From Paralichthys olivaceus (taxonomy: Eukaryota; Chordata; Actinopteri; Pleuronectiformes; Paralichthyidae): a stretch of DNA of 64,000 bases. The translations under genes and the position numbers were made by a program. Positions 29,152 to 44,005 of the stretch are shown piece by piece (position 1 is the first letter of the stretch; each line of letters starts with the position of its first letter). Location: NCBI RefSeq assembly GCF_024713975.1, contig NC_091102.1, positions 8,003,001 to 8,067,000 of the forward strand, given 5' to 3'. Below the pieces are notes generated by a model. It did not search any database. It was not told the origin of the DNA and saw only the letters and a list, made by a program, of their open reading frames with translations.

Positions 29152-32100
29152 CTAAGCGTTGCAGGTGACACTGTGGCTGAGGTCGCCGTTGATTCCGACT
29201 CCTACATTACTGCCCGTTTCATTGGGAATGTCATAGACTGTGTCGTCGAGCATGTCGTATGTCGTGTCGTTAGGGGCGTCGTCTGTGGGCTCACTGGCTG
29301 AGTCATGGGCTCCATCATCGGTCGGCTCTTTGCATGTGGAGGTTCTCGGCGGCTCCAAGACGGCCTTTCCCATCGGCCTGTTCTGCGGTGAAGTGGAGTT
29401 GCACATGAGACACAGAAGCGAGGAGCAGTCCCACAGGCCCTGGGTCATGTTGGAGGAGAAGAGCCTCCGACACGGATGACAGAACTGGTAGAAGACCAGC
29501 ATGAAGAAGATGGCTATGGCGTAGGCGACCAGCAGCTGCAGCACCAGCAGTGGTGCGCAGATGAACTTGTAGAAGTCTGTTTTGTAGATGTACCACAGCA
29601 GAAGCAGGGAGGCGTTCTCCACAAAGCGCAGCATGTAGTACACGGCCATGCGATACCAGTTCTGGGACTTATTGATGAGGTCTGGGTCGTTGAGTTTCAC
29701 CTGCACGGCCGACCAGCAGAACATGTTGATGCCGGCGTAGAGGAAGGTGAGCAAGCAAAGCACGATGGTGGTTCCCACCCTGGTCAGAGTCTTTTCTATA
29801 TTCTCTGGGAACGGCGAGTGACTCTGCCAGAACAGGATCCAGGGGTAGAGGAAGAAAACAAGGAAGTTCAGCAGAACCACAGGCAGGACCCAGAGCTGTA
29901 GCACGGAGCTGAACAGCACCAGCACCACCACACGGGTGGCGATCTCGAAGCTCCTCCACAGGAAGATGCACAGATACGCCATCGGCCGGATGTCCACTTC
30001 ATAGTCGTCATATTTGATCTTAATGGCCAGGATGTTGCAGCGCAGGGCTCCGTACACAATGGACAGGAGGGAGATCACCATCAGTGTGCCTGACATGAAC
30101 AATGAGAGAAATACGAGGACGCCATCAATGAAAGGAAAGAGTCACATTAGGTCTATTTCCAGGAGGGAAAGTTGAGTTTCTTTCTATGCAAGAAGGAAAA
30201 TTGTTCAGCACCTTTTCAAGTATAAAGCTGCCAAGAAGATATAAATATATATACAGTGTGAAATATGAGTATATATAACACATCTTTAGTGATAGACTTA
30301 AAACAGTTTGAGGTTAATAATAAGAGTTTCACTAAATACAGAGAAATTCAACTATGATAGGATTTGTTTGCGTGTAAGGAAATGTTTAGAGAAAGAGAAC
30401 TATAAAATAAATGTTATAGTTAACATACTGTAACTGTGGATGAGCTGCAGCCTCATATTATCATCAGACTAACTTTGGATGAGGATGAATAGATTTTATC
30501 ACGAGCACTGAAAGGACACAATGAAGGAATCTTCTAGTGTGAATGGTAGGAGGGGTTACAGCAAACAACAATGTTTTAAAAGCACAATAGTTGATGTGTT
30601 TTTCTGTCACACTAGGCGTCTCTCAATCAAAACAATAGAACACAGTTAGGAGACGGTTTCCTTCAGCGTTTATGCTTCAGTTATTTTTTTACCAGGAGCC
30701 AAATGAAGAGAAGTGATCTCTCCTGGTCCAAAATAAACAGACTTTGGCAGACGCAAAGCACGAGACACTGAGTGCTACCTTGATTAACTTAACAGATTTC
30801 TCAGGGTTTGATAATTTGGGTTGATTAAAGTCCACAACTCAACTTGTCTTATCAGTTTAATGCAGAAAAGACACACATTACACTTTTAGAGTACATATGG
30901 ACACCTGAGTGTGGTTTTAAGACAGAAGTGACAAGGCCCTGAAGCTTTTGTTCACCACTTCCTGGTCATTAAACCGGCAGGCGTGAAATAGAAGAGCAGC
31001 AGCTTCAGAGAACATGAAAGTGACCCACTGTATTTATGACCTCTTGTGTTTGGTCCTAAAGCAGAGAACAGATGGTGTGAGAACCTGTGAGTTCATCTCA
31101 GTGACAGAAGCACACACTTCTCACACATACTGACCCCTGATCAGCAATTTACTGAGACAATCATCAATATCAGATAACTGACTAAATCAAAGAGTCCAGA
31201 GTCCCTCCCCCCGTACCCCCCTAACCTCTACCGATGGACACCCCCTGCTGCAGGACGCAGATGTAGAGCTGTAGGGTGAGCTGGGGGGCCGATCCCAGGA
31301 AGGCCTGGATGACCGAGGTGCGGGCGAAGGCTGCTCGGTGCGTAAACAGTTTCCCCTCCGCCTGCCCCACCTGCCGCTCCACCTCCTCAGACTGACCCCC
31401 GCGGGGCATCTGCTTCTTCCTGGTGATGCTGACATACGGCTCCTCTACTCGGCCCACGCTGCCATAGATACAGAACGCCTCCAGACACCTGCAATGCAAC
31501 AGCAGCGGGAGAACAGAGATCATGAGGAGCTGCAGACTCTCTGACGTGTAGAGGAACTCACTGAAGGGCTGCAGAATGATGCATTACAGAAACAAACAAT
31601 TAAATATCACATTCAAACATCAGTCACATAATTAACATGCTGATGTTTAACAGGGGCCTGTAGTTTAGTTTAGCTTGTTTAGAACATTTTTAAAAAGGTG
31701 AAATCGTCCCATAATGTCAGACTAGTGTGTTATCTAGATCACCATGGTAACCAATGCTGCACCACTAACCTGCTCCACAGATCAGTTCAGTCATTCGTGG
31801 TCAGTGGCTGATTCTATTGATGACTAATAATAAACTTTATCTACTGTTCAAAAAGGAAACTTTCCTAAACATGATATTCTCCTGAAGGTGACGATCGTCA
31901 GCACTGAGAGTTTGTCAACTATTAAACATTTCGATTGGAAATAAACGAGTAAATAAATCAAATCTGAACGGCACATACAGTTCATTTCACACCCTCAAAT
32001 ATCAGTCCTCTTTCTCATTGATGCTCAGAAACACCCTAACTCACACTTTTCTAAGAAAGTGTAAAAGATCCTGGATCCACCTTCTGATGCAGATCTGCAC

Positions 32101-40587: not shown

Positions 40588-43500
40588 ATGTCTCTGGAGG
40601 AGGACTCATTTCTAACAGGCCCCGAGGACACCAGGGGTCCTGTGCTTCTGAATGTTTCCAGAGTGTCTGAGGACTCCACAGAGCAGCACCAGTACAACAT
40701 CTGGCTCCCTGGCATCGTCATCGCCGCCGTCTATGGGATCATCATCATCGTGGGTCTAGTCGGAAATGTCACTTTAATGAAGACGTGTTTGTTGGTGAAG
40801 TCCATGCGGACGGTGCCCAACTTATTCCTGTCCAGTCTGGCTCTGGGGGACCTGCTGCTGCTGGTGACCTGCGCCCCGGTGGACGCCAGCCGCTACCTGG
40901 TGGACGAGTGGCTCTTTGGCCGCGTTGGATGCAAAATGATCCCGTTCATCCAGCTCACCTCGGTGGGAGTCTCCGTGTTCACCCTCACTGCTCTCTCCGC
41001 TGATCGGTAGGCCAACAAATGGAGGGGTTGTTTTTGAAATTTTCGTTTTAAATGTACAAAAACAAAATTTGAATTCACACCTCAAACATATGGGTTGTTG
41101 AAAATAAATGAAATCCATGCAGAAGAATAGAGTATTACGCTCTTAACTTTTGTTCCAATCTTGAGCTTGCTCTGGGTAAAATCACGTTTTTTATGCACAG
41201 GATTACATTTCACCCCAAAAGAGAAATTCTGCAAATCTTATTTAAACTGAGAAATTCTTTCAATGGGTTTAATGTGGAATCCAATGCCTGGGGAGAAATT
41301 CCTCTGATGATCCCTGAATTTGGTCTGAGATAGTTTCTGCATTATCCCGGATGCATTTTCAGTATAGTAGGTAGTAATGTGCATAACACTTCTCACCCTG
41401 GCATGTTTAGTGCTGATAAAAACGACAGAGGTGAAGGAAAATACAGAGCAAAACTGCCTGGGAGCAATTGGTGATTAGTTCACCTCAAAAGAATGTCCCC
41501 ACCTCCAGAAGCAATGCTTTAAAATATTGAGTAAGCTACGTGTAGGTCAGAGTGGAAGGAAAGAGCCAAAAAAACAACAACAATCAATCAAATTGTATTT
41601 GTAGAGCCCATATCTAAAGTTCACAACTTGTCTCATCCTCTGTCCTTGACCCTCAACAAGAGTGAAGAAAAACTACCCAACAACATATTAACGTAAAAAC
41701 ATCCAAGAGAGCAACATTTGAGGGCTCCCTCTCCCAGGATGGAGAGAAGTGTAGTAGATGTTGTGTGTAGCAGAGCACATCAACAAAATAACAATATTTA
41801 CAATGTTGATGAGAAAAGACTGAGTCTAACATAAATGTTGTTGTGAGTCAAAGTTTGTTCAAATTGCTACACAGTAACATTCACGATATCATCTCTCATG
41901 TATTTACTTCCCCTCACAGAAAACAAGTGATGTAAGTGATGCAGTAATAATCTGCTCATGCCTGTCGCCAAAACCTCTTTCTTGTTTTTAAGAGACATTA
42001 TATTATTTATTTATATTTATACTTTATGTGATATAAGAAAAAGCTCGGTACATAGTTGGTTTTCTCTGCACTATGAATTAGTATTATATATAATACTGGA
42101 GAAGATCTGCTCCTCAGCGCTTATTTCCCCTTTTCCTTTTTGGAGATTGCTTCTTGTGTGTCTTCTTTTTCTTCTTCAGCGAACTTCCTGTGTGCAGCTT
42201 GCTCTCCATCGAATCTTCTGTTGGCAGCTTGCTCTTCTTTGTGGGTGCTTGCCTTTTGTCAGTCTCTCTCTTGAGAAGCTCATGCGTTCGTTTCAGCTCC
42301 TCTTCAAGCTGGCTCTGTCGGCTTTTCAGCAGGTCAGTCTGCTCCTGGAGAACCCTGTTTTCTTCCTCAAGAGACTGCACTTTTGTGCTCCACTTTAGCT
42401 CACTGCTCTTTAGCTCATTCTCCTTTTGAGAAAGCTCAGCCAGACTGCCAATATTGGCTTTGGTGCGTGCATGTTTTTTCTCAGTCTCAATCGCAAAGAG
42501 CTCATGCATTTCTTTCAGCTTCTCCTCAAGCTGACTCTGTTTGCTTTCATGCAGGAGACCCCAGATTTTCACAGACTTAATCATAGTCCTGCCATTATAG
42601 AAGGAATCTCTGAGGTCCTTCACAGTGTCCAAGAGCTGTAAGTACTCAGTGGTACTAAATAGGACTGGTTCACAAGTCTGAAAGAGAGAAACTTACATTT
42701 AGATCATTATTAAATCTCCACACCCATAGTAACACAAGGTAGGAGAATAACACATATTTCTACAGCTAGATCTACTTTAGTCTAAGGACAGAGCTCCTTG
42801 AAACACAACCCAACAGAGAGTAACATGTAGCCACAGCCTGGAAATCAAATTAATACATATCACATGATAACAAAACCACAGTGAAATGAAAGTGTTGGGC
42901 TCAACATCTATTGAGTTTTATGGGGGTACGGATAAACTGTAATTCAAATTCTTCATGACGTGAATAAATAACAGGGAAAAGCTTGCTGGCCAAGAGCACT
43001 GAAAGAAGACAAATGAGAAAATCTTACCAGTTTTCCTTTTGAGCCCATTTAGGTTATTGTTTCAGTAAAATTTATTTCAAGAGTTTGTCTTTCTCGTCTC
43101 AGTATGCAGTTCATCCTGAACATGAAACCATTTTGTTGGTTACTTAATTTATTTTCCCGCAGTTTAAAACTCAGCACAGGTTTCAAAAGCTGGCCTAGTC
43201 TACCAATTTGTCCTCATCCTATAGGTACAAAGCCATCGTCAAGCCGCTAGACAACCGAAGGTCCAGCATCTGTTTACGAGTGGGGGTGATCTGGCTGCTC
43301 TCTATGATCCTGGCGATTCCTGAAGCTGTCTTCTCTGACCTGCACGCCTTCACCACCAGCCACACCAATGAGACGTTCATGACCTGTGCGCCCTACCCTC
43401 ACGCCAGGAAGCTGCACCCGCAGATCCACTCCATCGCCTCCTTCCTCATCTTCTACATCATCCCACTCTTCATCATAACTGTCTACTACTGCTTCATAGC

Positions 43501-44005
43501 TCGCAGCCTGCTCAGAAGCTCTGTGGATATCCCATCTGAAGGACACCTTCACCTCCAGAAACAGGTCTGTGTGAGGAGTCCTCTGTTTATTTTACTTACA
43601 CTGTGGTCTTTACATGAACCATATCAGGAAATAACACAAATCTATTAAGTCCCCAAAATACTAGGTTAGAAAAAATATTTTTTTTCATTTCAGATCAGGT
43701 CCAGGAAGCGACTGGCCAAAACGGTGCTGGTGTTTGTTGGCTTGTTTGCTGTCTGCTGGCTGCCCAGTCACGTGATCTACCTGTACCGCTCCTTCAACTA
43801 CGACCAGGTTGACACATCGCTGGGCCACTTCATTGCTAGCGTGTGTGCTCGAATCTTCGCTTTCACCAACTCCTGTGTGAACCCGTTTGCTCTTTACCTG
43901 ATGAGCAAAAGCTTCAGCAAACACTTCAACAAGCAACTATGCTGCACGTCTCCCAGACGGTTGAACCACCAGAATAGTGCAAGTACTAACATAACCACCG
44001 TTTGA
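40588..44005 (+). CDS. grpr: Bombesin-family GPCR, best match gastrin-releasing peptide receptor, complete
   Basis: Three exons: 40588-41006, 43225-43564 and 43694-44005, giving 356 residues. Seven hydrophobic helices are visible, with SADRY at the end of helix 3 (residues 137-141), a Cys115-Cys194 loop pair, CWLP in helix 6 and NPFALY in helix 7. N22 lies in an N-glycosylation site and a CC pair near the C-terminus fits palmitoylation. RSMRTVPN-like loop 1 ([10 protein letters not shown]) and [10 protein letters not shown] are closest to GRPR. The four positions reported to separate GRPR/NMBR from orphan BRS3 read Gln122, Pro196, Arg285 and Ala305, all of the ligand-binding type. Family knowledge: the receptor couples through Gq to phospholipase C at the plasma membrane. 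Both intron positions match the family. NMBR or BRS3 is the alternative name. Intron 1 hosts an antisense gene. Confidence 0.9.
41581..41845 (+). repeat. Dispersed repeat in grpr intron 1
   Basis: The copy begins 'aatcaatcaaattgtatttg' and contains 'tgtccttgaccctcaacaag', 'ggctccctctcccaggatgg' and a closing AT-rich 'aacaaaataacaatattta'. I recall this order as an abundant teleost interspersed repeat. It has no coding capacity. It ends about 270 bases before the nested gene's stop codon. Confidence 0.65.
42006..42011 (-). terminator. Poly(A) signal of the nested coiled-coil gene
   Basis: AATAAA on the minus strand about 100 bases beyond the stop codon at 42114, still inside grpr intron 1. 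Confidence 0.5.
42114..43048 (-). CDS. Unrecognised coiled-coil protein with basic tail, nested antisense in grpr intron 1
   Basis: Two exons: 43028-43048 (ATG at 43048, MGSKGKL) and 42114-42677. The short exon ends CTG followed by GTAAGAT; the long exon follows a strong TTTCTCTCTTTCAG acceptor. Both are in phase 0 and together give 194 residues. TAA lies in frame directly before the ATG, fixing the start. Residues 8-49 ([20 protein letters not shown] onwards) look globular or helical. Residues 50-150 are heptad-rich and charged, typical of coiled coil. Residues 154-194 are Lys/Arg-rich, ending [10 protein letters not shown], and could act as a nuclear or nucleic-acid-binding tail. Residues 54-80 and 128-154 are an internal duplication with 17 of 27 identical. 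I do not recognise the family. The intact frame, splice sites and start argue for a real gene; a recent retained TE-linked copy is the main alternative. Confidence 0.7.

Follow-up and report, generated by a model that had tools for sequence, protein, structure and literature searches.

Fish gene models named trichohyalin-like, golgin-6-like or interaptin-like take those names from their coiled-coil composition, and among genes that lie inside other genes the LRRTM genes are on the strand opposite to that of their hosts. The LRRTM genes nested in the alpha-catenin genes are presented as vertebrate nested intronic genes (PMC3933685), and gene overlap is common, being put at 5-14% of the genes of vertebrates (PMC2151771). 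As far as the accessible text of the literature extends, nothing was found on the coiled-coil family described below or on a gene nested in grpr.

The locus considered here lies in a 64,000-nucleotide stretch of the Paralichthys olivaceus genome (NC_091102.1, positions 8,003,001 to 8,067,000; assembly GCF_024713975.1), referred to as the window. Comparison of its sequence with the remainder of the genome makes it likely that intron 1 of grpr harbors, in antisense orientation, a real protein-coding gene that probably works. With its two exons it is a divergent member of a coiled-coil repeat family that has many copies and evolves fast.

Structure of the nested gene and its predicted product

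An intact two-exon frame of 194 residues was read directly from the minus-strand sequence, wholly within grpr intron 1, which was placed at 41007-43224 (2,218 bp, GT...AG). The features are collected in Table 1. The host is a hormone-receptor gene, the best match of its exon 1 peptide being the solved gastrin-releasing peptide receptor (PDB chain 8h0q_R, E 5.3e-48). The coding part of the nested gene lies whole within this one intron and on the other strand, and 176 bases separate its ATG from grpr exon 2. Exon 1 has the codons ATG GGC TCA AAA GGA AAA CTG, with an in-frame TAA immediately before the ATG; the donor GTAAGAT starts at 43027, the acceptor CTCTCTTTCAG ends at 42678, and the phase is 0. 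The nested antisense gene model proposed in the preliminary description could be confirmed letter for letter in its ATG, donor, acceptor, phase and 187 second-exon codons, and it is strengthened by paralogues in which exon 1 and both splice sites are of the same kind. A chance open frame was rejected, both by the existence of these paralogues and by shuffling: 192 open codons, in any frame of either strand, were reached in 2 of 1000 dinucleotide shuffles of 41011-43200, and 4 times when the open stretch itself was shuffled 2000 times.

Table 1. Features of the nested gene and its surroundings in grpr intron 1 (positions in the window)
Feature	Position	Strand	Basis or remark
grpr exon 1, coding part (host gene)	40588..41006	+	direct reading; receptor structure match
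dispersed-repeat piece, 987 bp	41060..42046	.	74-94% identical in aligned pieces to 11/11 places compared
AATAAA (first base 42011)	42006..42011	-	within dispersed repeat
exon 2, 187 codons + stop TGA	42114..42677 (coding 42677-42117, stop 42116-42114)	-	direct reading and paralogues
Lys/Arg-rich end, residues 173-194	42117..42182	-	13/22 Lys/Arg
second internal coiled-coil repeat copy	42238..42333	-	pairs with 42460..42555
first internal coiled-coil repeat copy	42460..42555	-	96 nt; 75% identity between the two copies; spacing of 222 nt (74 codons)
intron, 350 nt, GTAAGAT...TTTCAG	42678-43027	-	donor-side stretch ~43026-42963 resembles other copies
exon 1, coding (MGSKGKL)	43048-43028	-	direct reading; 7-codon length also in L016, 4-codon form in L032, L033, L034, L037 and L023
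grpr exon 2 (host gene)	43225..43564	+	direct reading; 3' end judged by eye

The predicted protein includes 140 residues without proline, and its Lys/Arg-rich end contains no Asp or Glu. Heptad contrast was equalled in 37 of 1000 composition shuffles, so that the coiled-coil assignment rests mainly on family resemblance. With this qualification, the coiled coil and basic tail that had been noticed from the letters alone were both upheld, the former as a likely coiled coil.

Elsewhere in the window, the minus strand carries at 29152-30141 an open stretch of 329 codons with many hydrophobic segments, which we take to read like an exon of an XK-type membrane protein.

A dispersed coiled-coil family in the same genome

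The preliminary description knew of no family for the product, a statement that does not hold within the same genome, where about 50 related places were found, with E values down to 1.7e-7 from the nested-gene protein alone. In protein searches of the fish genome (588 Mb, 25 contigs; all match counts are lower bounds), this protein recovered its own locus and at least six further matches at five places, namely on contig C15 (47% identity, E 1.7e-7, with an overlapping match of 34%, E 1.0e-4), C16 (33%, E 2.5e-6, two places), C8 (42%, E 2.5e-5) and C2 (33%, E 4.4e-4). A reciprocal search from the C16 member finds the nested gene at E 5.2e-5, and chained searches gave at least 58 matches from the C16 member, at least 90 from locus L016 and at least 71 from the C9 member L023. 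Matches with E <= 1.7e-7 in at least one of these searches, merged by hand at 2.5 kb, define at least 53 places including the grpr-nested gene, 16 of them with a stop inside the match. A match without a stop is no proof of a whole gene, and is accompanied by a frame of 150 or more open codons at 36 of the 53 places (the grpr-nested gene counted) and by a shorter frame at one. One broken place had been overlooked in this list, the corrected figures being 54 places and 17 with a stop; five C24 places align over 70 residues only and may be chance coiled coils, and without them the list falls to 48 places, 16 with a stop and 31 with the longer open frame.

The family unit consists of about 75 coiled-coil residues in tandem, clearest in an eight-member alignment, and the internal repeat of the nested gene has a corresponding spacing (Table 1). 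Subfamily labels were taken from the tree, with A comprising L003, L007, L014, L015 and L010, B comprising L021, L022, L027, L028 and L030, and C comprising L023, L024 and L032. A Lys/Arg-rich C-terminus is present in L022, L023, L024, L027, L028, L031 and L035 and missing in L003 and L016. In a Pfam scan, the nested-gene protein had a single match at E 1.7 (6.9 bits against a cut-off of 30.7), and five relatives gave no convincing family. Two B-type proteins pass the cut-off of the bacterial DUF2171, though without any single passing stretch, which is taken as a coiled-coil artefact; L023 matches Nucleoprot-TPR at E 0.00039, below the cut-off (20.9 against 27 bits), and matches of the remaining relatives are weaker. 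Among solved structures the best match was E 0.13 with the single sequence, and the family profile had none at E 0.01.

Splice anatomy also links the nested gene with some of these relatives. In L016 (C15, 7.11 Mb), an ATG and 18 further bases precede the donor GTGAGATTTTC, giving a 7-codon exon 1, and no ATG lies ahead of the coil. In L032 and three tandem C9 copies (L033, L034, L037), the exon-intron junction reads ATGGACACTGTG|GTAAGATT, and the intron word TGCTCTTGGCCA is common to the nested gene and these four loci; inspection of L023 by eye gave ATGGCCACTGTG|GTAAGATT. Exon 2 begins with TCEPVLFS in the nested gene, TRGPLAFS in L016 and TCGPLLFS in L053, a shared TxxPxxFS pattern. Local alignment of 43064-42960 with six loci was compared with 300 dinucleotide-block shuffles. 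The scores were reached by no shuffle for L032 (43041-42961) or for the sister copy on C15 (43026-42963, intron only, from the donor on), and by one for L016 (43055-42965, ATG included). The exon 1 region of L023 was not significant (12 of 300, with the best match elsewhere in the locus), and no such exon 1 was found in the tested A copy L003 (212 of 300) or B copy L027 (114 of 300). A short coding exon 1 with a GTRAGAT donor in phase 0 is present in some members and is not universal.

On these sequence likenesses, the grpr-nested gene is one divergent member of a large, fast-changing coiled-coil family scattered through the same genome. It resembles this unnamed family in the unit of about 75 residues and in a short exon 1 followed by a GTRAGAT donor, as in L016, in the tandem copies on C9 and, judged by eye, in L023, and differs in having about two units only, in being 33-47% identical to other members, in its own tail sequence and in its position within grpr.

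Several features of the family were recorded in passing. L003 and L004 (C16, 5.36 and 6.10 Mb) lie in opposite orientation 0.75 Mb apart, both 100% identical to the 272-residue query with equal score, as either a recent inverted duplication or an assembly duplicate. Subfamily C pairs at C4 (27.745 and 27.765 Mb) and C10 (24.295 and 24.314 Mb) have equal scores and a similar spacing of about 19-20 kb, as if one segment were present twice. The tandem array at C9:4.328-4.345 Mb (L037, L032, L033, L034) has at least four copies, which follow one another every 5 kb or so and whose open frames span 794-829 codons, and L032 has long Glu/Pro-rich repeats after the coiled coil. In L023 (C9:11.45 Mb), positions 1438-1500, the intron between exons 1 and 2 is seemingly reduced to about 27 nt, across which the reading frame stays open; L024 lacks it.

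The closest copy

The closest copy, on C15 at 11.56 Mb, has exon 2 and the intron in common with the nested gene, being 64% identical to it over 653 nt (intron end and exon 2) and 83% over 64 nt beside the donor. Because intron sequence is common to both, the two are related by DNA duplication and not via RNA. Exon 1 of the nested gene has no similarity in the C15 copy, where the alignment starts at the donor and CTAAGAT stands at the expected donor position. In this frame the C15 copy carries one stop and three indels whose lengths are no multiple of three, and is thus broken. The tree places the nested gene and this relic on a branch of their own (support 98/94, the broken copy filling just 31% of columns), the end branch of the broken copy being the longer (0.37 against 0.21 for the nested gene).

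It is improbable that the C15 copy arrived with a duplicated grpr. The dispersed repeat next to the nested gene is missing from the C15 copy, and a genome search with the grpr exon 2 peptide gave at least eight matches, the best others being on C1 (67%) and C19 (49%) and none of the eight on C15, so that such carriage is not supported. In the 8 kb beyond the C15 copy, 12 frames of at least 80 codons were found, none of which looked like a host gene by eye.

Retention of the reading frame

The intron of the nested gene differs from that of the C15 copy by a K80 of 0.395 over 338 sites. Substitution rates are in the range of a few changes per billion sites annually, and at such a rate the split of the two copies is estimated to be tens of millions of years old. 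The shared intron was used as a neutral clock in a simulation of 10,000 trials, in which half of its K80 was assigned to the nested-gene branch and the indel rate was taken from the same intron (7 gaps per 133 substitutions, 5 of the 7 not divisible by three). The neutral probability of survival was 0.015 for a frame free of stops, 0.012 for one free of frameshifts and 0.0002 for both together, and when a higher indel rate was assumed for the same branch length, 0 of 4000 frames remained intact. Survival depends on the branch, being 9% at 0.05 and 1% at 0.1. Of the two readings of the undamaged frame offered in the preliminary description, selection is favored by this retention beyond neutral expectation, whereas a recent origin is refuted by the paralogues and by the age of the split from the nearest copy.

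Against the C15 copy, NG86 gave a dN/dS of 0.38/0.75 = 0.51 over 122 codon pairs (a single stop codon, every gapped codon and whatever lies beyond nucleotide 430 being left out), and 0.73 and 1.01 in the two shifted frames; LWL85 gave 0.35/0.44 = 0.79. K80 at codon positions 1, 2 and 3 was 0.47, 0.36 and 0.48 (exon 2 to nucleotide 430), a weak signal, and K80 for the whole of exon 2 was 0.519 over 460 sites (the tail alignment being doubtful), no less diverged than the intron. With a broken copy as one of the two sequences compared, a modest dN/dS is to be expected. Eight unsaturated paralogue pairs, of 11 computed, gave NG86 values of 0.50-0.85; the saturated pairs, not used, were nested gene-L016, nested gene-L003 and L016-L003 (dS 1.9, 1.6 and 1.6). 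On these comparisons, the nested frame is retained but fast-evolving, and the apparent constraint is modest.

Modest constraint leaves some room for a relic whose promoter or start was lost so recently that damage has yet to accumulate, an incipient pseudogene. This is the best surviving alternative, and we regard it as unlikely. In its favor are the damage to the C15 copy and the stops at 16 of 53 family places; neither the NG86 nor the LWL85 value indicates strong constraint, and the grpr-nested gene has TTA where copies of the C15, A and B types have an ATG in the main exon, so that its translation needs exon 1 or a later ATG. Against it, no damage is seen in the start codon, the donor, the acceptor, the phase or the 187 codons of exon 2, and the like exon 1 layout of L016, which has seven codons and also lacks an ATG before the coil, led to loss of the start codon being dropped as the leading view. 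With the neutral survival given above for branches of 0.05 and 0.1, only a late loss fits a relic.

Other explanations

Antisense nesting by itself makes it physically possible that the transcript outweighs the protein and tunes grpr through transcriptional interference or double-stranded RNA. This is very unlikely, as frame retention points to a protein, the members of the family are dispersed, and no grpr-like gene adjoins the copy on C15 (none of the eight matches being on C15). Nothing was seen in the sequence that would suggest a link between the nested gene and grpr function, and its location would most simply reflect an insertion site tolerated by the intron rather than a regulatory link.

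The many dispersed copies, and the 987-bp repeat piece that occupies most of the remaining grpr intron 1, starting 67 bases downstream of the nested gene, might raise the suspicion that the frame is a processed retrocopy or travelled with a transposable element. Either origin is highly improbable. A retrocopy was rejected as the intron has been kept, with sequence common to the C15 copy and in part also to the C9 copies. As for the repeat, all 11 copies compared align only inside 41060-42046 and not into the nested gene; three of the repeat loci (L039, L043, L046), searched with family proteins, gave no match, and the repeat is unmatched in the C15 loci L002, L048 and L069. A link between gene and repeat is therefore not supported. 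GTACA occurs close to both ends of the piece and may be a target-site duplication, and the five other repeat copies with inspected ends run on past both ends. The downstream AATAAA of the preliminary description is present, but belongs to this repeat.

Birth of an orphan gene de novo from intron sequence, with which the poor Pfam and structure matches of the protein would agree, is next to impossible, being refuted by homologous coding sequence elsewhere in the genome, in paralogues that share its repeat unit and, for some of them, its exon layout as well (E down to 1.7e-7).

Proposed function and comparison with known systems

In summary, the nested gene is read as old, and as neither a de novo frame, a retrocopy nor a long-dead relic. 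If the reading as a working gene is correct, it would be transcribed and spliced as drawn, with transcription beginning within the 176-base interval that separates its ATG from grpr exon 2, or further up, and a single splice. The predicted protein would start with a short head, continue with about two coiled-coil units and finish in a strongly basic tail. The coiled-coil units would permit dimers or larger assemblies, and the basic tail (PKRKRGNKR) may direct the protein to the nucleus or bind nucleic acid or another polyanion. The likeliest activity that we would predict combines self-association with nuclear or nucleic-acid binding, although tentatively, as this proposal is more apt to prove wrong than right. 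A broader scheme, quite unlikely as a whole, would have a fish family of about 50 copies, unnamed in Pfam, spreading by DNA duplication with frequent copy loss and changing fast as in genetic conflict (germline, chromatin or host-parasite), its grpr copy having been kept for tens of millions of years with a job of its own for the basic-tailed coiled coil, possibly affecting grpr.

The nested gene itself is an ordinary kind of thing, an intronic paralogue of a multi-copy family, and the wider interest lies in the family. An apparent orphan becomes a member of a sizeable family without a convincing Pfam match, and its splice anatomy helps in annotating some of the other members. If expressed, it would be a gene of a fast-changing family kept intact in an intron while its sister copy died, useful for the study of nested-gene retention. 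The trichohyalin-like, golgin-6-like and interaptin-like fish models would likewise have coiled-coil repeats. The nested gene resembles the LRRTM genes in being a whole protein-coding gene inside the intron of another gene; however, LRRTM is a named family with described functions, whereas the gene in grpr is one copy of a dispersed, unnamed family.
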